Source of the DNA: Candidatus Thioglobus sp. | GTDB lineage: Bacteria > Pseudomonadota > Gammaproteobacteria > PS1 > Pseudothioglobaceae | DNA: 41,489 bases | NCBI GenBank assembly: GCA_012959965.1 | Contig: DUCF01000074.1 | Location: 27,924 to 69,412 of the forward strand | Direction: 5' to 3' | Shown: in pieces, positions 9,841 to 20,953 of the stretch | Numbering within the stretch: position 1 is the first letter of the stretch | How the letters are laid out: every line of letters begins with the position of its first letter | Program-made: the position numbers and the translations under genes | Notes under the pieces: model-generated | Told to the model about the DNA's origin: nothing | Database searches by the model: none | The model's input: only the letters and a program-made list of their open reading frames with translations

Positions 9841-10857
9841 TTAATACTCATTCTTAGGTGCCCAAGGCTTTCTGTCGCCAAGAACACCTGAATCTTTGAC
9901 CATCTCTGCGACATACTGCTCTTGCTTGTACGCCATCACATGTACGCCACTAACACCTTCAAGCTCTTTAACTTGTTGCATCAGTTCAACGCAAATCTTT
10001 TGTCCTTCTTTTTTCTGATTCTCCGCACCTTCTAAACGCTTAATAATGCTGTCTGGAATATGCACACCAGGCACATTTGAACGAAGCCACTTTGCTGTAT
10101 TAGCCGAAGCCAATGTGCCCACACCAGGCAATATAAAAGCACGCTCGGTTAGGCCTCTATCGACCGCTTCCGCCATAAAATCTTTTAGCATCGGCATGTC
10201 AAAACAATACTGTGTTTGGATAAACTGCGCACCGGCGTCAATTTTTTTCTCCATTTGCGATACTCGAGATTCAACAGGAGGTACAAACGGGTTAATCGTA
10301 CTACCAGCAAACATTGCTGGCGCTTTCGTCAGCCTTCTACCACTGAGAAGTGTCGACTCATCTCGCATTTTTTGAATGGTTGTCAACAATGAAATGCTGT
10401 CCAGATCAAAAACGCGTTTCGCTTCAGGTTGGTCACCCGCACTGACATCGTCCCCCGTTAACGCCAAGACATTACAAACGCCCATCGCCGCCGCACCCAA
10501 AATGTCGCCTTGAATGGCAATTCGGTTTTTGTCTCGACAAGAAATTTGCAGAATCGGCGAATAACCAATATGCGCAAGCAATGCACATACAGCAACACTA
10601 GACATGTGGCAATTTGCGCCCGAGCCATCGGTCGCATTAATCGCATCAACCGCATGATCAAACATCGCCGCTTCGTGAAAAACTTCGGTGCGATCGGCAG
10701 AATCCGGTGGAGCTAATTCTGTCGTTACCGCAAATTCACCGCGCTTTAGAACGCGCTCAAATCTTCCACGTGAAACATGGCCTTCCAATTTCGGCAACGG
10801 GTTGCCCGGATGGTAAACGTATTCCGGATTAATTTTGATTGATTCGTCAGATACCAT
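9841..10857 (-). CDS. Methylenetetrahydrofolate reductase (MetF-like)
   Basis: This 338-residue protein is a methylenetetrahydrofolate reductase barrel. Recognisable sites are the catalytic-glutamate strand (AVTTELAPP), ISCRDKNR, the LALTGDD loop corresponding to the flavin/folate loop of E. coli MetF, and QTQYCFD. In biosynthesis the enzyme reduces methylene-THF; in this cluster it would run in the oxidative direction, turning methyl-THF into methylene-THF. It follows the MetV-like gene by two bases, an arrangement known for MetF-MetV of acetogens. A separate housekeeping metF probably exists elsewhere, but that is not seen here. Confidence 0.92.
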   Translation of the reverse strand: MVSDESIKINPEYVYHPGNPLPKLEGHVSRGRFERVLKRGEFAVTTELAPPDSADRTEVFHEAAMFDHAVDAINATDGSGANCHMSSVAVCALLAHIGYSPILQISCRDKNRIAIQGDILGAAAMGVCNVLALTGDDVSAGDQPEAKRVFDLDSISLLTTIQKMRDESTLLSGRRLTKAPAMFAGSTINPFVPPVESRVSQMEKKIDAGAQFIQTQYCFDMPMLKDFMAEAVDRGLTERAFILPGVGTLASANTAKWLRSNVPGVHIPDSIIKRLEGAENQKKEGQKICVELMQQVKELEGVSGVHVMAYKQEQYVAEMVKDSGVLGDRKPWAPKNEY

Positions 10858-10859
10858 TG

Positions 10860-11312
10860 CTATTTCGCCTTAACGTCTTCATTCGCCAATCGAATCCAAG
10901 CGCTCGAACCTTTGTGTTCATTATTTACAGCAAATTGAATTTCTTGGATTTTATGGTTGTGTTTCATTTTTTTTGAGCCAGCCCAAGCCTCAACCCAAAC
11001 ACACTTCATCTCAGGCTTTACTTCGCAATTGCCATTGGCACGAACACCGCCGCAAGGGCCGTTTCTTAAAGTTTTTGGGCAGTTCATTGGACAGGTCATG
11101 CCCGTTGTTGAGAGTACACAATTACCGCACATTTGACAATCAAACAGAAAGCCTTTGGTTTTCTTTTCAGCCCAAGTAATTGGCTTGTCGAGCTTTCCCT
11201 TAACGATTTTATTCAACACTCTAAGAGACGCCAAAATAATAGGCGACGAGGCGTTATACATCGCTTCATAAGCTCTCGCATGTTTGCTTGCAAATAATCT
11301 CGCTTTATACAT
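10860..11312 (-). CDS. MetV-like methylene-THF reductase C-terminal-domain protein
   Basis: This 150-residue protein has a dense cysteine block (CQMCGNC, then TCPMNCPK, GPCGG, NCEV and KCVWVEAW) typical of the MTHFR C-terminal domain family, which in acetogens is the MetV partner of MetF and links it to an electron donor. The first 50 residues are basic and helical. It stands alone just upstream of the metF-like gene rather than being fused to it. The likely role is to bind the reductase and carry zinc and/or iron-sulfur ligands. The electron acceptor used here is unknown. Confidence 0.85.
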   Translation of the reverse strand: MYKARLFASKHARAYEAMYNASSPIILASLRVLNKIVKGKLDKPITWAEKKTKGFLFDCQMCGNCVLSTTGMTCPMNCPKTLRNGPCGGVRANGNCEVKPEMKCVWVEAWAGSKKMKHNHKIQEIQFAVNNEHKGSSAWIRLANEDVKAK

Positions 11313-11313
11313 C

Positions 11314-11964
11314 TTAAGTCTCTTCGTTTGCCACTGGCATTATCTCAATCTCATCAAAGACACAATCCAAACACCCTGTGCCTACCAATTTATATTCGTA
11401 CTCAAAACCCCAGTCTTTGGCGTATTGTTCGGCCTCTTTTTGCCACTGCTCATTTTCTGTTTGCGCCAAATACACCAATTTTTTGTAATTGGCAAAATAC
11501 ACATCAAACAATTCTGGGTAGCGATCCAAGCCCATGCCTTTAATCATGAGCCTTTTAAAATTATTAACCAAGTAATCGGTTAGGTAGAATGTCCCTAACT
11601 CCTGCTCAGCCATTTCGTGAAAAGCTTCAGATCCAGCAAAGAACTCGTAACAATGAGCACCGCCAATGCGTTTCGCATTATATTTTTCGATTACCCTATC
11701 GAGCGCCCCGCCCGTACCGCAATCTGCATAAGCAATATAGATATCTTCATAAAGATCGCCATACTTAGCTAAATAATCTTCCACGCCAGGGGCTATCAAT
11801 TGCGGATTGTTGTGCCAACTTGCTGGCAAACACTGTAATTTAACTTTATCTGATAAACCCGGATTTTGCTCAATCAGCCGAAGAAGGTCGTAAACGAGCG
11901 CTCCGCAGCCGAGAACAAGACGTTTTTTATCTGTGTGCACGTTTGTTTTTTCGCTCACGGACAT
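11314..11964 (-). CDS. DUF1638-family protein
   Basis: This is a 216-residue member of the DUF1638 family, recognised by LVLGCGALVYDLL at the start, the YIAYADCGTGGALD stretch, and GGAHCYEFFAGSEAF, all with conserved Cys, Asp and His residues. Its biochemical function is not established. Related genes are often seen beside corrinoid methyltransferase genes. The frame is open to 12033, but that start is deep inside the corrinoid gene. The ATG at 11962-11964 begins the conserved part with a 38-base overlap, which implies translational coupling to the corrinoid protein. A role in handling corrinoid or its protein is inference from position. Confidence 0.82.
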   Translation of the reverse strand: MSVSEKTNVHTDKKRLVLGCGALVYDLLRLIEQNPGLSDKVKLQCLPASWHNNPQLIAPGVEDYLAKYGDLYEDIYIAYADCGTGGALDRVIEKYNAKRIGGAHCYEFFAGSEAFHEMAEQELGTFYLTDYLVNNFKRLMIKGMGLDRYPELFDVYFANYKKLVYLAQTENEQWQKEAEQYAKDWGFEYEYKLVGTGCLDCVFDEIEIMPVANEET

Positions 11965-12631
11965 GGGTCTCTGCCATTTCCGAACTGCGTGCTGCATCAC
12001 GACCGTAAGCCGGCACACCAATCGCGTCTGCAAACTCTTGGTTCAGCGGTGCACCACCACACATCATGTGAATGTCTTTTCGCAGTCCGCGTTTTTCAAA
12101 TTCCTCTGAAACAACACCCATGTATGGCATTGTTGTTGTCAACAGAGCTGACATGCCAACAATTACTGGCTGATGCTTATCAACAGCTTCAAGGTAGTTT
12201 TCTACAGGGTTGTTAATACCTAGGTCAATCACTTCAAAACCAGCGCCTTCAAGCATCATGCCCACAAGGTTTTTGCCAATATCGTGGATATCGCCTTTAA
12301 CCGTACCAATGACAAACTTACCCAAAGAGGTGTCTTCTGCAGCTTCTGCAAGAATTGGACGTAGAATTTTCATGCCGCCTTTCATCGCACCGGCACATTT
12401 AAGCACTTCGGGGACAAACAGAATGCCGTCTCTAAAGTCAACACCAACAATCTTCATGCCGCCCACTAGAGCTTCGCCTAAAACATCATTCGCATCCCAA
12501 CCACGAGAGAGTAAAATCTCCGTACCTTCGGTTACTTCGTTGGCTAATCCATCGTATAAATCATCTTGAATTTGCTCAACAAGATCTTTGTCATCAAGTT
12601 CGTTTAGATCGAAATCGTCTTCATCACTCAT
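11927..12631 (-). CDS. Cobalamin-binding corrinoid protein (MtgC/MtbC-like)
   Basis: This protein of about 234 residues has an N-terminal helical cap domain and a C-terminal B12-binding Rossmann domain. The base-off, His-on signature GDIHDIGKNLV (D114, H116, G119) provides the lower cobalt ligand. The SALLTTTMPYM and MMCGGAPLN loops are also those of the methyltransferase-type B12 proteins. It accepts a methyl group from the MttB-like enzyme and hands it to the THF methyltransferase. GTG at 12632-12634 is directly before the ATG; I use the ATG, which follows AAGGGG by five bases. The acidic N-terminus contrasts with a basic C-terminal tail, RERKNKRAHR. It is the first gene of the operon. Confidence 0.93.
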   Translation of the reverse strand: MSDEDDFDLNELDDKDLVEQIQDDLYDGLANEVTEGTEILLSRGWDANDVLGEALVGGMKIVGVDFRDGILFVPEVLKCAGAMKGGMKILRPILAEAAEDTSLGKFVIGTVKGDIHDIGKNLVGMMLEGAGFEVIDLGINNPVENYLEAVDKHQPVIVGMSALLTTTMPYMGVVSEEFEKRGLRKDIHMMCGGAPLNQEFADAIGVPAYGRDAARSSEMAETHVRERKNKRAHR

Positions 12632-12670
12632 CACGGCCCCTTAAGTTATTATTACTAATGTAAAAATGTG

Positions 12671-12699
12671 ATTTAACCGCGGACGTTTTTTAAAGTCAA
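12671..12699 (-). promoter_or_regulatory. Putative sigma-70-like promoter of the corrinoid operon
   Basis: On the minus strand TTGACT (12694-12699) and TTAAAT (12671-12676) are separated by 17 bases, about 40 bases upstream of the corrinoid start. The -35 match is 5 of 6 and the -10 match 4 of 6. The short untranslated region leaves no room for a riboswitch. It is the only good promoter-like pair noticed between 12632 and 12868. Confidence 0.5.
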
Positions 12700-12868
12700 C
12701 TGATATTTCTTACTGCTAAAAATCGGATTTCTCGATGGCAATTTTTAACGTAGATAAATAACCGGAATCCTCTTGTATATCAACGCAATAGCGCCCACTT
12801 AAATTGTGTGTTTTTGGCTCTAAAAAGAAGCTTTTTCTACGTTCATGAAATTCTGGATGTTCACAGTA

Positions 12869-14164
12869 TTACGAGATACGAACAATAACCTCTGTACCGC
12901 CGCCGATTCGATCATGAACATCAACCTTCCAATCATATTGCTTCACGATTTGATTAACAATCGCCAGCCCCAAACCCGTGCCTCCCGTAGTGACATTTCT
13001 TGACCCTTCCAAGCGATAAAATGGCTGAAAAATCGCTTCTTTTTGCGCATCAGGAATGCCCGGACCCCGATCTAAAATTGAAATTTCCAAAGAGTCACCA
13101 ACGCTCTGCCAACACATTTCGACAGGCTGTCCAGCGCCGTAACGCAATGCGTTGCTAAGAATGTTGACCACAACAGCACGAAGTGCGTAAGTCGAAGTCG
13201 TTATTACAACGTTCTCGTCACCACTCAGTATTACCTTTTGATTTGTTTCAAAAGTGAGCTCTGCAATCACATCGTTTAGCAATTCTGAAAATACAATGCT
13301 CTCTGTATCGCTTGTATCAAGACTTCGTGTTAACGACAAGTACTGAGTAACAATGCGCTCAATGTCTCGGTGTACACTGTGCAATTCCTCTTGCAACTCA
13401 TCATCGGTCTCTTTCGGCAACATCTCCGTTACCAATGCCAGTCTTGTCAGTGGCGTACGAATATCGTGAGAAATGCCAGAAAGTAAAATAGTTCGGTTCT
13501 CCAATAAGTCGTGGACATCCCTAGACATTTGGTTAAATGCTTTGGCGGTATCAGAGAATTCTTGCAGCCCTGATTCTTCTAAAGGTTCTGGCTTTTGACC
13601 ACGACCGATAGTTTTTGCGGCAACGGCCATTTTCTCCAACGGTTTGGTTATTTTTTTCATCAGATAAAGACTGGCAAGAATGGCGATGAACGCAATAGCC
13701 GCCATTATCATAATAGCCACTGTTGGTATGAGCCACTCAGGCCTGCGCTTATTTACCCCTAACCGAATATGCTGGCCCTCGAGTGTCATTTCAAGCCAAT
13801 ATCGTTCCGATCTGCCAGCCTGCTTCAGAACGCGAACCGGACTGCCAATTTGCTCAGATACTTGTCTGGCAACTACCCGGTAATACAAGGGTATCGCTCC
13901 AGATTTATCAAGATGCTCATTACCTCTGCCAAGTATTAAATGGTCTTGGTGCTTTAGCCTTTGTGCAAATTCTTTTTTACTGTCCTCGGGCAAATCAACG
14001 TAAGTTTGAGCGGTCAAAACAATCAAGGATGCAAGTTCGCCAGCACGCTCTTTATCGTTGGTGTCTTTCATATAATAACTGCCAACCGCGACTGACAGCA
14101 CTTGTAACAACAACAGTGCGCTTGAAATGATGATGGCAATTTTAACAAACAACGTTTTACGCAT
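12869..14164 (-). CDS. EnvZ/CpxA-like sensor histidine kinase
   Basis: This is a 431-residue membrane sensor kinase. A first transmembrane helix spans about residues 8-30 and a second about 145-168, leaving a periplasmic domain of roughly 115 residues. A HAMP linker follows, then the phosphoacceptor helix (LSGISHDIRTPLTRL, H233) and the ATPase domain with NILSNALRYG, DRGPGIP and GGTGLGLAIVNQIV. Its start overlaps the response regulator stop by one base. The probable targets are the two look-alike promoters at 14924-14996 and 20012-20084. The signal is unknown. After the stop the same frame stays open for another 51 codons without a start codon; I do not annotate that stretch. Confidence 0.93.
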   Translation of the reverse strand: MRKTLFVKIAIIISSALLLLQVLSVAVGSYYMKDTNDKERAGELASLIVLTAQTYVDLPEDSKKEFAQRLKHQDHLILGRGNEHLDKSGAIPLYYRVVARQVSEQIGSPVRVLKQAGRSERYWLEMTLEGQHIRLGVNKRRPEWLIPTVAIMIMAAIAFIAILASLYLMKKITKPLEKMAVAAKTIGRGQKPEPLEESGLQEFSDTAKAFNQMSRDVHDLLENRTILLSGISHDIRTPLTRLALVTEMLPKETDDELQEELHSVHRDIERIVTQYLSLTRSLDTSDTESIVFSELLNDVIAELTFETNQKVILSGDENVVITTSTYALRAVVVNILSNALRYGAGQPVEMCWQSVGDSLEISILDRGPGIPDAQKEAIFQPFYRLEGSRNVTTGGTGLGLAIVNQIVKQYDWKVDVHDRIGGGTEVIVRIS

Positions 14165-14883
14165 TATTCACTACCCCCTTTCGGGGTAAAGCGATAGCCA
14201 ATGCCGCGTGCTGTGCGAATAAACTGAGGCGATGCTGGATCCGATTCAATCTTTTTACGCAACCGAGTAACCCTAACATCGACAGAGCGGTCAAATGGAT
14301 CACGATCGATGCCGCTAAGTTGATTCAAAATAAAATCACGGCTGAGTGGCTGATTCGGCTTTTCAATAAACAGTTGCAACAAGCCTATGTCGGAGTATCC
14401 CAACTCAATCTCTTTGCCAGAGCGTGTGAGTATTAGTGATTTTTTATTAAATTGGAATTCACCGAAGAATACAACTTCATCGCTAGAGTCGTCAACATTT
14501 TGATAATTTGCTCGTCTTAGTAATGAATGTATTCGCGCCAATAATTCTCTAGGGTTAAACGGCTTAGCAAGATAATCATCCGCACCCACTTCAAGTCCAA
14601 TAATACGATCAATTTCATCGCCCTTAGCGGTCAACATAATAATAGGAATATTTGAGCCGGCCCTGAGGCGTCTAGCAATTGATAGGCCGTCTTCACCTGG
14701 CAACATCAAATCGAGTACAATCAAATTTGCACTATTAATCTCAAGCCACGCATCCATCTCAATTGCACTACCGACCGATTCACTTTTCAATCCTTGATCT
14801 TCAAGGTAACGCACCAACATCCGGCAAATACCGGGGTCGTCATCCACAATAAGTATCAAAGGTGGTTTGTTTATCGCGCTCAT
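14164..14883 (-). CDS. OmpR-family response regulator
   Basis: This 239-residue protein has a receiver domain with the acidic pocket D14-D16, phosphoacceptor D58 in LIVLDLMLPGEDG, the switch threonine in MLTAKG and K107 in LAKPFNP. It is followed by an OmpR/PhoB winged-helix domain ending in DVRVTRLRKKIE and RTARGIGYRF. It is partnered with the kinase downstream. OmpR-type regulators bind tandem repeats of about 10-bp period, and such a repeat (GTTAC, period 10) is found directly upstream of this gene on the divergent promoter and again at 20012-20026. That is the basis for the proposed regulon. Confidence 0.94.
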   Translation of the reverse strand: MSAINKPPLILIVDDDPGICRMLVRYLEDQGLKSESVGSAIEMDAWLEINSANLIVLDLMLPGEDGLSIARRLRAGSNIPIIMLTAKGDEIDRIIGLEVGADDYLAKPFNPRELLARIHSLLRRANYQNVDDSSDEVVFFGEFQFNKKSLILTRSGKEIELGYSDIGLLQLFIEKPNQPLSRDFILNQLSGIDRDPFDRSVDVRVTRLRKKIESDPASPQFIRTARGIGYRFTPKGGSE

Positions 14884-14923
14884 AGGACCAAATTATACGT
14901 CAGCGAATTACCCTCGCCTCATC

Positions 14924-14996
14924 GTTACATTAGGTTACAAATCGACACAGATTGTTACGCCGTAGAAAGACGCTGGTAACAATCGATGCTTAACAT
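14924..14996 (+). promoter_or_regulatory. Putative response-regulator-dependent promoter A with direct repeats
   Basis: Upstream of the secreted-protein gene at 15050 are two GTTAC units (14924-14928 and 14934-14938, period 10), an additional GTTAC at about 14954, then TAGAAA (14963), GTAACAATC (14976) and a -10-like TAACAT (14991-14996). A gapless copy with identical spacing precedes the gene at 20143. The position, about 65-80 bases upstream of the presumed start of transcription, suits activation by an OmpR-family regulator. It also lies 40 bases upstream of the regulator gene on the other strand, so feedback is possible. Confidence 0.55.
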
Positions 14997-15049
14997 GTCG
15001 ACCAATCCAGTCAAGACTTGGATCAACTCAATTAATTTAAAGGTAAAAA

Positions 15050-15493
15050 ATGAATAAATTAAACACTGTATTGCTCGCTTCAGTTTTGATTATTAGCACC
15101 CAGTCAGCTTTTGCTGGCTCCAAGATGGATAACCCCGCATTCGAGGATTTATCTTTTCTTGATAAAAAAGACCTTGCTCAAGTTCTTTTAGGGTTTAAAT
15201 CATTGCCAGAAGATGTGCGCTTGTCACTATGCAATGGTGCTTTATTGAGCTATCTGGACTCTCAAGAGTATTCGGGCGATTTGGAAATTGTTGAAGAAAT
15301 TTTCTCTGAGGTTGACGATTTATCACAAGATGCGCGCCTTGCTTTAACACAAGTTGCAACCAAAATGCTTGGTGACAACGGCAAATGCGAAGAAGGAATG
15401 GCGCGAGCGGACAAAAAGAAACGAGGTGAGCGTGGTTTTTGGTCAATGTGGAATCGATTTTGGGGTGGTGGCGACAAGAAGTCCAGAAATTAA
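15050..15493 (+). CDS. Small secreted protein, paralogue of the 20143 product
   Basis: This 147-residue protein has a clear signal peptide ending ...STQSAFA before GSKMD. I do not recognise a named family. The mature part is mostly helical and acidic, with one LS-x-D-x-R-x-x-L segment near residues 92-100 and two cysteines, followed by a basic C-terminus (KKKRGERGFWSMW). Its signal peptide and the LS..R..L..C segment resemble the protein at 20143, so the two are probably paralogues. It is 38 bases upstream of the TolC-like gene and is probably the first gene of the efflux operon. A CpxP/Spy-like envelope-stress helper role is possible but unproven. AAAGG supplies the ribosome site. Confidence 0.8.
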   Translation: MNKLNTVLLASVLIISTQSAFAGSKMDNPAFEDLSFLDKKDLAQVLLGFKSLPEDVRLSLCNGALLSYLDSQEYSGDLEIVEEIFSEVDDLSQDARLALTQVATKMLGDNGKCEEGMARADKKKRGERGFWSMWNRFWGGGDKKSRN

Positions 15494-15531
15494 ACCATAC
15501 AAGCAATTATTAACAATTAGGAGAGTGGATC

Positions 15532-16884
15532 ATGAGAAAGAGTCTTATTACAATTTTATGCCTTGGCGCCAGCGCTCAAATTTATGCATTAACATTAAGC
15601 GAATATAGCGAAAAACTAACTCAAGAGCACCCGTTTTATTCGCAATTATCTCTCTCTGAAGAGGACAATCAACTCACCCATCAGACCTCTCAACTTATTT
15701 ATGGTTGGAACGCCCAACTGAATGTTACTGACAACTACTCATCGGTAAATGACCTCAACAACGCCAGGGTCGAGCTTAGCACGCAAAAGGCAATTGAAGA
15801 AACAGGTGGCAACTTAAGCATAAAGCACTCGTGGAATGATAATGGACTGGCCGAACCAACAAACCTTACTTCAGTGGCTTACTCGCAGCCGTTTTTACAG
15901 AACCAAGGCGGTATTAACACCAGTCTATCTGTAGACTTAGTAAACATTGATTTAGAGTCAAAAAAATTAAGTCTGATTGAGCAATCTGAGAATTTATTAG
16001 CCTCCAAATCTAAAAAGTTTATTGATCTAGCACTTGCTCAAGAAAAAGTGGCTATTGTCAGCAAAAATTTAAAACTAAGTGAACAGCAACTTAGTATTGC
16101 CACAGAAAAATACGCGCAATCCATTCTTTCAGAATCCAGTCTACTGCAAGAACAGGATAACTTTATTCGAGCAAAGCAGCAGCTGTTACAAGCTGAACAA
16201 GAGCTAGACTCCATAAAAAAGGAGCTCGCCTCATGGATAAACGTCGATCCACAAGTAATGGTTGCCGAATTTAACATATTCCAAGAACAAACCGCTCTGG
16301 ATACTAACACCCAAAGCCTTGTTGCAGGCTCAAGAGCGATCCAACAATTGGACTTTGATAGGCAAAAGCTTCAACGACAGCTCATTAGCAACCAAAACAA
16401 GCTAGAGCCCAGTTTAAATTTAAATATTGGATTGACAAGCCAAGGAAGTGGCAACGGTTATTTTGATAGTTTTTCAAACCAAAACACCTCATTCGAAGTT
16501 GGGCTTAACTTTACTTACGCTTTTGGAAACAGCAAAGAACAGCTCGACATCGAAAGAACTCGAAACTCACTGGCACAACTTAATAGTAGAATGCAGGAGA
16601 GTGAAGCAAATCTAACTCAGCAAATTAACGCTCAATTTTCACTAATTGAACTTCTACAACAACTGATGGAAATCTCGCTTGAACAAAGCTTATTGGCAGA
16701 CGCAAAAGTCGGAGAAGTACAAAAGCAATACAACAATGCAAAGAGTCAAAAAAGTAACGTCATTGCTGCACAGAAGAGTGCCAATACGGCGAAGTTGTCG
16801 TATACACAGGCCGCTGCAAATCTTCAAAAAGCACACATCGATTATTTAAGCCTGTCGGATCAGCTTGTTGACACCATCAATTAA
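15532..16884 (+). CDS. TolC-family outer membrane efflux protein
   Basis: This 450-residue protein has a signal peptide (ending near QIYA) and a two-fold repeat of long coiled helices rich in Gln, Ser and Glu (for example residues 180-240 and 350-440), broken by short beta segments such as SLNLNIGLTSQGSGNGYF. This is the pattern of TolC-type trimeric channels that cross the outer membrane and reach into the periplasm. AGGAG precedes the ATG. It is followed after 27 bases by the RND pump. Residue-level similarity to a substrate-typed channel was not recognised. Confidence 0.88.
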   Translation: MRKSLITILCLGASAQIYALTLSEYSEKLTQEHPFYSQLSLSEEDNQLTHQTSQLIYGWNAQLNVTDNYSSVNDLNNARVELSTQKAIEETGGNLSIKHSWNDNGLAEPTNLTSVAYSQPFLQNQGGINTSLSVDLVNIDLESKKLSLIEQSENLLASKSKKFIDLALAQEKVAIVSKNLKLSEQQLSIATEKYAQSILSESSLLQEQDNFIRAKQQLLQAEQELDSIKKELASWINVDPQVMVAEFNIFQEQTALDTNTQSLVAGSRAIQQLDFDRQKLQRQLISNQNKLEPSLNLNIGLTSQGSGNGYFDSFSNQNTSFEVGLNFTYAFGNSKEQLDIERTRNSLAQLNSRMQESEANLTQQINAQFSLIELLQQLMEISLEQSLLADAKVGEVQKQYNNAKSQKSNVIAAQKSANTAKLSYTQAAANLQKAHIDYLSLSDQLVDTIN

Positions 16885-16911
16885 ACCAGCACTATTTAAC
16901 AAGGACACCCA

Positions 16912-19900
16912 ATGAATGCTTTTTTAAAATTTTTTGCACACCAGAAAAAACTCGCCCTTATTTTCACTCTGTCCATCATTGTATTAGGGGTTATTGCCTT
17001 ACAAGACATTCAGCGTGATCAGTTCCCATCCGCAGAGTTTTCCTCATTAACCATCTCAACCTCATACCCAAATGCCTCACCGCAAGATGTGGAAAAAAAT
17101 ATTACCAATGTCATTGAAGCAGCAATAAAAAGTATTTCTGGCATCGAAAAGATCACGTCCACTTCCCGTGAAGGAGTGTCCAGTATTAGTGTCAATATTT
17201 CTCCCGATGTTATAGACATCTCGGCCGTTAAAGCCGAAATAACAGAAACCGTCAACGGTATCCGCTCTTTACCTGGCGATATTGCTGATAACCCACTGGT
17301 CATTGACAGAAAATTTACTGAAAGACCAGTCCTTACCATTGTTATTGACGGGAAAAGCGTCGATATGGATGTTGCCGAACGGATTGCAAATGACCTAGAA
17401 AAAAATCTTACACTGATAGACGGCGTCTCTTCTGTTGATATAAGCGGCGACTCAACAAGAGAAATTCAAATTCAAATAGACCCCGATAAACTTTTACAGT
17501 ATCAGCTTTCATTTGACCAAGTGAGTAGTGCTATTGCAAGGCAAAATGTTCGTTCAACAATCGGTGATAACAATCAAGGAGAGGATAAAAAAAGTATTGT
17601 CATATTATCTGAATATACAAACACTCAATCAATTGAAAATGTTATTGTTAAGTCAAGTTATGATGCCCCACTTGTCTATTTAAAAGACATTGCCATAGTT
17701 AGCGAGGGCGCTGTTGGGTCACAATCCATCACTCGTATCAACGGCACAACCGGCTATATTTTAAAAGTCAGAAAATCAGAAAATGCCGACATTATTCACA
17801 CAGTGGAACAAGTAAGAGAGAAGGTTTACGAGTTAGAGCAATACTATCCAAGTGAACTTAACTTGATTATTGCTGACGACCAATCTACTGGCGTTGCAAA
17901 TCGTTTAAAAATTGTTACTAACAACGCAATTTTAGGTTTGATATTTATCATGATTGTTCTCGGTTGTTTCTTGTCCCTTAAAACTGCTTTTTGGGTGGCG
18001 ATCAGCATACCCGTAGCCTTGTTAGGTACGGTTGCTTTTCTTGGTTTTTCTGGGGAAACAATTAACCTGATCTCACTAACGGCGATGATTTTGGTACTAG
18101 GCATTGTTGTTGATGACAGTATCATTATTGCTGAGAGCATCCACCACTTCAAAGCACAGGGCGGCAACGTTTATGAAAATGTAGTGGCTGGATTTAAGCG
18201 CGTCATTTTACCGGTATTCACTACTATTTTGACAACCGTACTTGCCATGTCAACAATGTTTATGATGTCTGGCACCTTGGGCAAATTCATCTATATCCTA
18301 CCTATTACGGTTATCTGCGCGCTTGTACTATCGGTCCTAGAGGTGAGTTTTGCTTTACCTGCCCACTTGGCAGGTCAAAAAAATGAAAAGCAAAAAACAT
18401 GGTTTAAACCTGTCGAGCGCTGGTTTGAAAAGCAGTTAAAAAAATTACTTAAATGGCGTTATTCAGTTGTTACGTTTTTTATCGCATTACTGATTTACTC
18501 CTCATTTTTTGCCGTCAACAATATGTCATTCATCACATTCCCATCCGATGGCACGAATTCAATAAGTATGCGTATTGAAATGGCCGCTGGCACCTCAGCT
18601 AGCACAACTGAGCAAGCTGTTATTCAAGTGGAAAACATTATTATTGAACAGACCGGGGGGATTTTGGACTTCTTCACCAGCTCTATTGGTTCACGCGAAA
18701 CCAATAAGGCAACAATCTCCATCGCCTTGATTCCTTCGAGCGATCGGGATGTTAGCGCCGCTGAGATCCTTAAAATTTTACAAGCAACCGTAATCAATGT
18801 CGAAGGCATCGAAGTTGTTAAATCTAGGGCTAATCGCGAAGGCCCAAATGCCGGCTCAGATATTGAAATAAACTTGATAGGCAGCAACGATGCACAAAGA
18901 GAGTCTGCCATTGCTCAACTAAAAGAAATACTAATGAGCATGCCAGGGGTTGGGGATATCGACACAGGCGAAGATCCAGGAAATTCTCGAATAGAAGTGG
19001 TGCTGGATTACGAGGCCATGGCCAGACTGGGCGTGGACTATCAACAGGTTTACAGCCACCTTAGAACAATTTACTCGGGCAAAAACGTCACGGATGTTCA
19101 GTTCGACAACACCAATTTAAACGTCAAAATGTATCTTGGAGATAACAACTATTCCGAGAACTACATTCCAAGCACGCAAGTCAGAAGTGGTCAAGGGATG
19201 ATGATTCCGATGTCCGAATTTTCAACCATTATTGAGATACCCGGAGAGCCTGACTACCGTCATCTGAATGGCGAACGCGTTATTACGATTAGCGCCGCAG
19301 TTGACGATTCCACTACAACCGCACAGGTGGTAATGAGAAAGGCGTTACAAACACTGGATGTGGGGAGCAATTATCCCGGTGTTAGAATCGTGGAAGGGGG
19401 CAATGCCAGACAAGCAACACAAACACTTGATGATTTTTATTTTGCACTGGGGTTTGCAGTTTTTGGCATCTTTATGATTGTTTCACTACTATTTAACTCG
19501 TATTCCCAACCATTATTAGTGCTGGCAAGCGTGCCATTTTCTATGATTGGCGTTCTTTGGGCTTTTGTTCTGCACGGAGAGCCGTTCAGCTTTGTTGTTG
19601 CAATAGGAGTCTTAGCATTAGTTGGCGTTATAGTTAACGACTCGCTGGTCATGATAAGCCATCTAAATTACTTAAAATCTAAACAAGACAAAGTCAGTAC
19701 TTCAATTAATTGGATTGCTGAGGGTTCAAAAGATAGACTTAGGGCTGTTGTACTAACAACACTTACAACACTTGCAGGTGTGCTACCTTTGGCCTATGGC
19801 ATTGGTGGCACAGATGCTTTCTTACAACCAATGGTCTTGGCACTAGGTTACGGCTTGTTGTTTGGAACTTTGATTACGCTGGTGCTATTACCGTGCCTTT

Positions 19901-19971
19901 ATTTAATGAATTACGACTTTATTAATTGGCTAACTGGTCTTAAAAGTAAGTACTTAACCAAAACAAATTAG
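16912..19971 (+). CDS. RND-family efflux pump inner-membrane subunit (AcrB/HAE-type)
   Basis: This 1019-residue protein has the RND layout: one N-terminal helix (residues 12-30), a large periplasmic loop, six helices (about 335-540), a second periplasmic loop and six C-terminal helices (about 840-1005). The proton-relay pair is seen in TM4 as GIVVDDSIIIAES; the equivalent TM10 stretch reads VGVIVNDSLVMISH and lacks the AcrB lysine. The family exports small lipophilic compounds with proton exchange. It normally needs a periplasmic adapter, but none is encoded between tolC and this gene or just downstream. AAGGA precedes the ATG. The substrate is unknown. Confidence 0.9.
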   Translation: MNAFLKFFAHQKKLALIFTLSIIVLGVIALQDIQRDQFPSAEFSSLTISTSYPNASPQDVEKNITNVIEAAIKSISGIEKITSTSREGVSSISVNISPDVIDISAVKAEITETVNGIRSLPGDIADNPLVIDRKFTERPVLTIVIDGKSVDMDVAERIANDLEKNLTLIDGVSSVDISGDSTREIQIQIDPDKLLQYQLSFDQVSSAIARQNVRSTIGDNNQGEDKKSIVILSEYTNTQSIENVIVKSSYDAPLVYLKDIAIVSEGAVGSQSITRINGTTGYILKVRKSENADIIHTVEQVREKVYELEQYYPSELNLIIADDQSTGVANRLKIVTNNAILGLIFIMIVLGCFLSLKTAFWVAISIPVALLGTVAFLGFSGETINLISLTAMILVLGIVVDDSIIIAESIHHFKAQGGNVYENVVAGFKRVILPVFTTILTTVLAMSTMFMMSGTLGKFIYILPITVICALVLSVLEVSFALPAHLAGQKNEKQKTWFKPVERWFEKQLKKLLKWRYSVVTFFIALLIYSSFFAVNNMSFITFPSDGTNSISMRIEMAAGTSASTTEQAVIQVENIIIEQTGGILDFFTSSIGSRETNKATISIALIPSSDRDVSAAEILKILQATVINVEGIEVVKSRANREGPNAGSDIEINLIGSNDAQRESAIAQLKEILMSMPGVGDIDTGEDPGNSRIEVVLDYEAMARLGVDYQQVYSHLRTIYSGKNVTDVQFDNTNLNVKMYLGDNNYSENYIPSTQVRSGQGMMIPMSEFSTIIEIPGEPDYRHLNGERVITISAAVDDSTTTAQVVMRKALQTLDVGSNYPGVRIVEGGNARQATQTLDDFYFALGFAVFGIFMIVSLLFNSYSQPLLVLASVPFSMIGVLWAFVLHGEPFSFVVAIGVLALVGVIVNDSLVMISHLNYLKSKQDKVSTSINWIAEGSKDRLRAVVLTTLTTLAGVLPLAYGIGGTDAFLQPMVLALGYGLLFGTLITLVLLPCLYLMNYDFINWLTGLKSKYLTKTN

Positions 19972-19982
19972 GTTGATACTTT

Positions 19983-20007
19983 GGAGTTTGGTCACTGACC
20001 AAACTCC
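19983..20007. repeat. Perfect 12-bp inverted repeat after the RND gene
   Basis: Two perfect 12-base arms, GGAGTTTGGTCA and its complement, are separated by a single base. No T-run follows on either strand, so it is a poor intrinsic terminator. It lies 11 bases after the RND stop and 4 bases before the promoter B repeats. It may be an operator or an mRNA 3' end stabiliser. Confidence 0.6.
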
Positions 20008-20011
20008 CGAT

Positions 20012-20084
20012 GTAACACTTGGTTACCATTTGCCACACTTGGTTTCTCTCTAGAAAACGTCTTGTAACAATCAACGCCTAACAT
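20012..20084 (+). promoter_or_regulatory. Putative response-regulator-dependent promoter B, copy of promoter A
   Basis: This stretch repeats the layout of promoter A with no gaps. GTAAC and GTTAC units of period 10 (20012 and 20022) are followed by TAGAAA (20051), GTAACAATC (20064) and TAACAT (20079-20084). The distance from GGTTAC to TAACAT is 58 bases in both copies. It drives the gene at 20143. Sequence between the shared blocks matches at a little over half of positions, so the blocks look selectively kept. Confidence 0.55.
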
Positions 20085-20142
20085 AGCACCTAACTCGAAC
20101 AAACAATTGGGTTGTTTAATTTAAGCGATAAGGAAATACAAC

Positions 20143-20625
20143 ATGAAAAAACTACATAACTTACTACTGGCGTCGATCTTATGTATCGGCACACAAGCGG
20201 CCTTGGCCAATGCAGATACGACTTCCGGTGAAGGCGTATCAAGCTCCACGATTGAACAATTAGTTAGTCAAATTCAATCATTGTCAATTGAAGATCGCCG
20301 AACACTCAGAGAGGCGGTTCGCGCTCAATTAAAAGGGGAACGTCAAGCTTGCCAAAAAGCAGAAAAAGGCGGAAAGGATGTTTCACGTGAAGAGCACGAA
20401 GAACACAAAGCCAACTCTGCAAAGGACTCAGACAAACGTGACGCCAAGAAATGCCACAACAAGAAAGGCATGAATGACTGGGGTCATGAGATGGCCGGTG
20501 AGCCGGGCATGGATAAAGGCAAAATGAAACACCGCCAAAAAGCCGGCATGGAAAAAGAGAAATTTGAAAAATGGGTTTGGTTTCTATTTAACAAATACCA
20601 TGCCCAACAACATCACTCTCACTAA
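20143..20625 (+). CDS. Small secreted His/Met/Lys-rich protein, paralogue of the 15050 product
   Basis: This 160-residue protein has a signal peptide of the same design as the 15050 product (M-x-KL, LLAS, TQ, A-x-A at the same positions). The mature part has a helix with LSIEDRRTLREAV and one following cysteine, aligning with the same segment of the paralogue. It then has a long, highly charged tail rich in Lys, Glu, Met and His, ending QQHHSH. Metal or polyphosphate binding is conceivable. No family name is offered. AAGGA lies upstream, promoter B precedes it and a terminator follows. Confidence 0.8.
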   Translation: MKKLHNLLLASILCIGTQAALANADTTSGEGVSSSTIEQLVSQIQSLSIEDRRTLREAVRAQLKGERQACQKAEKGGKDVSREEHEEHKANSAKDSDKRDAKKCHNKKGMNDWGHEMAGEPGMDKGKMKHRQKAGMEKEKFEKWVWFLFNKYHAQQHHSH

Positions 20626-20635
20626 AAACACAAAC

Positions 20636-20665
20636 ACCCTGTCACTTCCCAAGTGGTGGGGTTTT
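20636..20665 (+). terminator. Rho-independent terminator after the 20143 gene
   Basis: Twelve-base arms (ACCCTGTCACTT and AAGTGGTGGGGT, with G-T pairs) around a CCC loop are followed directly by TTTT. It lies 11 bases past the stop codon and could also serve the convergent small gene at 20675-20842 on the other strand. Confidence 0.75.
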
Positions 20666-20674
20666 GCTACATTG

Positions 20675-20842
20675 TCAATCTTCCGCGCCAACCTCTAACT
20701 CAATCACTTCCACTTCAGCATTCGGGTGAGCGTTATGCGCCTTCTTTTCTGCTTCTTCCATGTTTTGAGCTTTAATAAATTCATGGTCTTCATGACCCTT
20801 CTCAATCGAATTTACTTTATATAAATGGTTGTCGACCGACAT
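20675..20842 (-). CDS. Small conserved-looking protein of 55 residues
   Basis: The minus strand has an ATG at 20840-20842, six bases after a good AGGAG, and a 55-codon frame to TGA at 20675. The product starts MSVDNHLYKVNSIEKGHEDH and ends in an acidic EVEVIELEVGAED, with lysine/glutamate-rich middle sequence. It has no signal peptide or membrane helix. I do not recognise a family. The strong ribosome site and protein-like composition support it as real. Confidence 0.6.
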   Translation of the reverse strand: MSVDNHLYKVNSIEKGHEDHEFIKAQNMEEAEKKAHNAHPNAEVEVIELEVGAED

Positions 20843-20953
20843 ACAGCTTCTCCTGAATTAATATGAAAAATGTGTTCTTCGCAAATCCAAAGGTGCTTAA
20901 AAAATCGCCTAATTGATAACTATCTTACTTCACTGCCCAGAAGACAACCTGTT

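Follow-up and report, generated by a model that had tools for sequence, protein, structure and literature searches.

OmpR binds 20-bp sites that are each composed of two 10-bp sub-elements and lie in tandem (PMC3050692), and the published OmpR motif reads GTTACAnnnnGTTACA (PMC7315122). OmpR-family systems that stand beside RND operons and use direct-repeat operators are already known as a kind of regulation. In Y. enterocolitica, OmpR directly activates the RND pump acrAB (PMC4403819), and in P. fluorescens RND efflux pumps are controlled by RstA/RstB, for which the RstA box is TACAtntngtTACA (PMC8562477). No literature joining Thioglobus, two-component systems and efflux was found.

The stretch of DNA analysed here, termed the window throughout, comprises 41,489 nucleotides of a 1.79-Mb Candidatus Thioglobus genome and contains a cassette in which an OmpR-type regulator gene is divergent from an efflux operon, with promoter A between the two and promoter B downstream of the pump. 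From the features described below, it is very likely that one OmpR-type promoter under the adjacent regulator is present twice, as A and as B, driving the efflux operon and a further gene, spB; B is probably the duplicated copy.

Gene content of the cassette

The features of the cassette, in window coordinates, are the following.

12635-20953, no strand: lineage-specific 8.3-kb insertion, HK-RR-(A)-spA-OMF-RND-(B)-spB, between a corrinoid-protein gene and a GATase gene
12869-14164, minus strand: histidine kinase (HK) of EnvZ/CpxA type; HAMP, HisKA and HATPase_c (Pfam, NCBIfam); phospho-acceptor context SHDIRTPLTR
14164-14883, minus strand: OmpR-family response regulator (RR); Response_reg and Trans_reg_C
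14892-14897, minus strand: perfect TATAAT, 8 bp before the RR start codon; putative function as RR promoter
14924-14963, plus strand: operator A, four 10-bp half-sites making up two 20-bp OmpR-type sites, F1-F2; kept in the sister species
14976-14984, plus strand: fifth half-site-like element of promoter A, GTAACAATC; B has the same sequence, the sister species GTTACAATC
14991-14996, plus strand: TAACAT, probable -10 of the spA-OMF-RND promoter
15050-15493, plus strand: spA, a protein of 147 aa that has a signal peptide and belongs to no known family
15532-16884, plus strand: TolC-type outer-membrane efflux protein (OMF); PF02321, 2.6e-13
16912-19971, plus strand: RND permease, AcrB/MdtC superfamily; PF00873, 3.8e-161
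19983-20007, plus strand: RNA hairpin with a perfect stem of 11 bp, separating operator B from the RND stop codon; -17.2 kcal/mol, z -4.6
20012-20051, plus strand: operator B, four 10-bp half-sites
20064-20072, plus strand: fifth half-site-like element of promoter B, GTAACAATC
20079-20084, plus strand: TAACAT, probable -10 of spB
20143-20625, plus strand: spB, 160 aa, His- and Lys-rich with a His-rich end, signal peptide; no known family

The regulator and kinase genes overlap by one base, and their products constitute a two-component system of the OmpR/PhoB family, with the phospho-Asp in VLDLMLPGEDGLS and the His in the SHDIRTPLTR context. The regulator is 48.7% identical to E. coli OmpR, with a conserved recognition-helix region (RSVDVRVTRLRKK vs RSIDVQISRLRRM), and the kinase is 32% identical to E. 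coli EnvZ. The best NCBIfam profiles are OmpR for the regulator (263 bits, under the 331-bit cut-off) and EnvZ for the kinase (233 bits, under the 415-bit cut-off); by these equivalog cut-offs neither protein is an OmpR or EnvZ orthologue proper. The nearest response regulators found outside the genus, 50-57% identical, occur in other families of the class. At most of their loci an EnvZ-like kinase adjoins the regulator, and no relative of the cassette RND or OMF was present near them within the stretch read.

Behind promoter A follow, in order, spA, the OMF gene and the RND gene, and spB sits behind promoter B. The RND permease is 63% identical to relatives within the genus, and is thus of the host family's kind. 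By ORF and Pfam annotation the cassette has no gene for a membrane-fusion protein. In the genome a single such protein, of HlyD_D23 type, was found, and it adjoins a divergent 1118-aa RND-like protein (contig C3; L118, 4409-8798). Other RND permeases of the bacterial family (L042-L048, L050) are solitary, beside bipA, ruvA and similar genes, and no membrane-fusion or outer-membrane partner was recognised beside them at the loci checked. Of 29 genus genomes, that of the sister species alone has a homologue of spA, and no homologue of spB was found in 274 genomes drawn from the class. AlphaFold2 models of both proteins are poor (pLDDT 46-48), and their assignment to the CpxP/Spy/ZraP-type periplasmic chaperones or to YbgS was rejected, with no significant Pfam match.

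The hairpin that follows the RND gene differs from its counterpart in the sister species by three two-sided compensatory changes and one G-U, with no pair broken; this covariation rests on two sequences, the shuffle control being weak (66/500), and sliding the partners abolishes pairing. As it has no U-run, the hairpin may end or protect the efflux mRNA in a manner other than that of a standard terminator, and B may then start a separate unit.

Two matching promoters

The intergenic regions compared extend from 14884 to 15049, between the divergent RR and spA genes, and from 19972 to 20142, between the RND gene and spB. An earlier note on this DNA had described their promoters as superimposable, and indeed A (14924-14997) and B (20012-20085), offset by 5088 bases, are identical at 51 of 74 bases in an ungapped alignment, against a maximum of 39 (mean 32) for the best ungapped 73-bp match in 1,500 shuffles of both regions and 35/74 for the second-best ungapped placement of A within the window. 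The identical spacing that it reported is likewise exact, with 58 bases from GGTTAC to TAACAT in both A (14933, 14991) and B (20021, 20079), and TAGAAA and GTAACAATC are common to the two. The half-sites of A are GTTACA (14924), GTTACA (14934), GACACA (14944) and GTTACG (14954), and those of B are GTAACA (20012), GTTACC (20022), GCCACA (20032) and GTTTCT (20042). Of the period-10 GTTAC repeats claimed for both promoters, the 10-base period is exact in each, but B has a single exact GTTAC and its half-sites are degenerate. Nowhere else in the window does GTWAC cluster as densely as at A and B. An extra GTAACA at 14976 in A and 20064 in B falls +22 from the fourth half-site, off the 10-bp phase. 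An inverted repeat of GATTGTTAC and GTAACAATC in A was considered as a key element and rejected; although perfect here, it is interrupted in the sister species, and B does not have it.

Both operators are built as OmpR-type operators are, with tandem 20-bp sites of two tandem 10-bp halves and a GTTACA-like core, and the attribution of the period-10 direct repeats to this family is upheld by the fit of the half-sites to the published motif and period. Site A, which starts GTTACATTAGGTTACA, contains GTTACAnnnnGTTACA literally. A matrix was made from ten sites, six from E. coli (located in the K-12 sequence) and four from Y. pestis; among 82,940 window positions it ranks 20012 third, 20054 sixth and 14924 eleventh, and when two 20-bp sites in tandem are ranked B comes third and A fourth. 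The F2 sites rank only 1091 and 1802 with this enterobacterial matrix. By this scoring the OmpR-motif match is strong for F1 of both promoters and weak or partial for F2 and the rest.

If TAACAT is the -10 element, the last paired half-site starts 37 bp upstream of the -10 in both A and B; the same distance is 37 in E. coli ompC and 38 in ompF, measured to what we take to be the -10 positions of those promoters. There is no recognisable -35 in promoters A and B, as expected of an activator-dependent promoter, and TAACAT is identical in all four promoters (A and B of both sister species). The fifth half-site is positioned between the expected -35 and the -10; an activator bound there would stand in the way of polymerase, which counts against the preferred reading. 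The regulator gene abuts A, as the earlier note had it, its start codon (14881-14883, minus strand) lying 40 bp away. Relative to the predicted start of spA, operator A spans approximately -79 to -40, and relative to that of RR, on the opposite strand, approximately -39 to -78; because it lies some 40 bp from both predicted divergent starts, the regulator's own gene is probably controlled too, and this geometry suggests that operator A governs both directions, including RR autoregulation. The candidate TATAAT on the minus strand would start the RR mRNA about 2 bases before the start codon, leaving it nearly leaderless.

Extent of the proposed regulon

Motifs were counted by pattern searches of the host genome, with an operator pattern derived from A and B that degenerate sites elsewhere could escape. 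At up to 3 mismatches the scan returned A and B at 0 and one further match at 3, inside an ORF. Reversed-pattern controls gave zero matches, and in the sister species the same scan recovered that species' A and B, again with 0 mismatches. A looser 26-bp pattern matched the genome no more often than the control did. The best extra matches, considered as a third member of the regulon, were rejected, as none of the three resembles a promoter. Two fall within ORFs, one of them close to the end of contig C28 and the other on C11, and the third is on C22, next to an msrAB-like gene in a spacer between convergent genes. No third convincing operator site was found in the host genome, and the regulon looks confined to the cassette locus. 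The earlier note had spoken of a self-contained, undescribed regulon. The first adjective has good support, since the regulator, both sites and all target genes lie within one insertion; the second, in any strong sense, finds no support, for the motif is the textbook OmpR motif (PMC7315122) and a comparable arrangement of a two-component system and an RND pump has already been described in AdeRS/AdeABC (PMC5947904).

Conservation and origin

The cassette is one lineage-specific insertion. Among 29 genomes of the genus it is present only in one sister species (G019), and in 10 of the 10 other genus genomes whose GATase locus was read the GATase gene is followed directly by the corrinoid-protein gene. 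At the insertion boundaries there is no clear direct repeat, and the flanks match no empty site of relatives. The RND permease being of the host family's kind, the cassette probably combines an acquired regulator with a resident-type pump. When the sister species are compared, the differences in promoter A fall on 2 of 39 motif columns vs 34 of 121 others (Fisher p 0.0013); in promoter B the two are so alike that the comparison reveals no selection (p 0.08 for the region as a whole and 0.55 locally).

Several observations concern the surroundings of the insertion. The spacer at 12635-12868, which runs from the kinase stop codon to the corrinoid gene, compared with its counterpart in the sister species (L032, 1886-2159), is unalignable over the first 77 bp and 94% identical over the rest, a possible insertion edge. 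The corrinoid protein/DUF1638/MTHFR-C-terminal/metF-like cluster (9841-12634) is conserved in the genus, and in relatives the corrinoid gene is preceded by a conserved promoter-like block, TTGACA...TATCTT, that the window lacks where the insertion begins. At the other end, a 55-codon ORF (MSVDNHLYKVNSIEKGHEDHEFIKAQNMEEAEKKAHNAHPNAEVEVIELEVGAED) lies on the minus strand within 20626-20953 between spB and the GATase gene, and this flank is 98.7% identical to that of the sister species over 316 bp.

Alternative readings and proposed mechanism

The signal peptides of spA and spB align with a score of 61, against 38 for the best of 2,000 shuffles and no more than 41 for any other signal peptide of the loci compared (next best unrelated 36-41), and their mature parts are not alike beyond chance (33 of 2,000 shuffles reach the score). 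With signal peptides alike and mature parts not, promoter and signal-peptide codons were probably duplicated together, which accounts for the existence of B; A and B would thus share ancestry with the codons behind them, a source of likeness that the earlier note does not take up. It might be argued from these scores that A and B are alike mainly through this duplication, that the likeness is residual descent and that only the half-sites of A matter. We regard this as quite improbable: the flanks outside the shared block are near background (13/40 and 17/47; for comparison, 26/40 in the operator and 18/21 in columns 93-113) and the mature proteins cannot be aligned beyond chance, so the blocks have outlived a long divergence. 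Their survival beside diverged flanks points to continued function, with which duplication is in any case compatible. Less credible still is the idea that the regulator acting on A and B is not the adjacent one but some other OmpR-type protein encoded in the genome. The genus does have further OmpR/PhoB-family regulators (approximately 45% identity), but these also occur in genomes without the cassette, whereas the operator pattern is nowhere else in the genome at 0-2 mismatches and co-occurs with the RR in both carrier species.

The geometry of the core promoter is more debatable. In an ompF-like arrangement the true -10 would lie about 22 bp further down, GTAACAATC would be a third site, F3, and TAACAT would occupy the position of the ompF -35, with regulator and targets unchanged. 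The distance from GTAACA to TAACAT matches the 15 bp between the last half-site and the -35 of ompF, and the B copy of the GTAACA site is the one ranked sixth of 82,940. Even so, we consider this arrangement unlikely, though a serious contender, as TAACAT agrees with the -10 consensus in 4 of 6 positions, A2 and T6 among them, but with that of the -35 in 1 of 6, and the alternative -10 hexamers (AGACTT, AAATCT, AACAAT) are not conserved, in contrast to the TAACAT shared by the four promoters. A bolder proposal, which we hold to be a long shot, is that of a transferable local regulon with a built-in shut-off, in which the paired half-sites would activate at low regulator levels and the fifth would repress at high levels, and in which spA and spB may stand in for the membrane-fusion protein that the pump lacks, or feed back on the kinase.

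Under the preferred reading, of one OmpR-type promoter in two copies under the adjacent regulator, the EnvZ/OmpR-like pair would sense envelope or chemical stress, and the phosphorylated regulator would bind the four 10-bp half-sites head-to-tail and recruit RNA polymerase to promoters whose -10 (TAACAT) is weak and in which a -35 cannot be recognised. Expression of spA-OMF-RND, the efflux unit, and of the separate spB unit would presumably be raised in parallel, and operator A would probably also govern the RR gene. The unit would have arrived, or been assembled, as one insertion in an ancestor of the two sister species, with B probably arising by duplication of the promoter and signal-peptide codons.

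Comparison with known systems

The understanding of OmpR-type regulation is unchanged by this locus. What is notable is its strict locality, the paired promoters, the fifth half-site in the core promoter, the missing membrane-fusion protein and the two family-less exported proteins. A streamlined marine SUP05-type sulfur bacterium has gained a sensor-to-effector module with, apparently, two target promoters and a regulator otherwise absent from the genus. It offers a clean natural case of the acquisition of a local OmpR-type regulon with its promoter probably copied onto a second gene, and it flags spA and spB as candidate partners of a pump without an adjacent membrane-fusion protein.

Like EnvZ-OmpR of E. 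coli and Yersinia at the ompF, ompC, ompX and ompR promoters (PMC3050692), the cassette has tandem 20-bp sites of 10-bp halves with a GTTACA/GTAACA core and expected autoregulation and, if TAACAT is the -10, approximately 37 bp from the last half-site to a weak -10 without a -35. It is predicted to act on an efflux set and a pair of small exported proteins, whereas the targets of EnvZ-OmpR are porins; it has only two close sites in the genome, is a lineage-specific insertion, and encodes proteins at the identities to OmpR and EnvZ given above. The OmpR that acts on acrAB in Y. enterocolitica (PMC4403819) is a global regulator, in contrast to the local one here. Promoter A contains TACATTAGGTTACA, one base off the RstA box, but the regulator is much closer to OmpR (263 bits) than to RstA (139.5 bits). 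Where AdeRS is divergent from a complete MFP-RND(-OMF) operon, the cassette has RND and OMF only, lacking a membrane-fusion protein and carrying extra exported proteins. With AdeRS-AdeABC of Acinetobacter (PMC5947904, PMC11892822) it nevertheless shares an OmpR-family two-component system divergent from an RND operon and a direct-repeat operator in the spacer, to which it adds more half-sites, a canonical OmpR core and a second matching promoter downstream of the pump.
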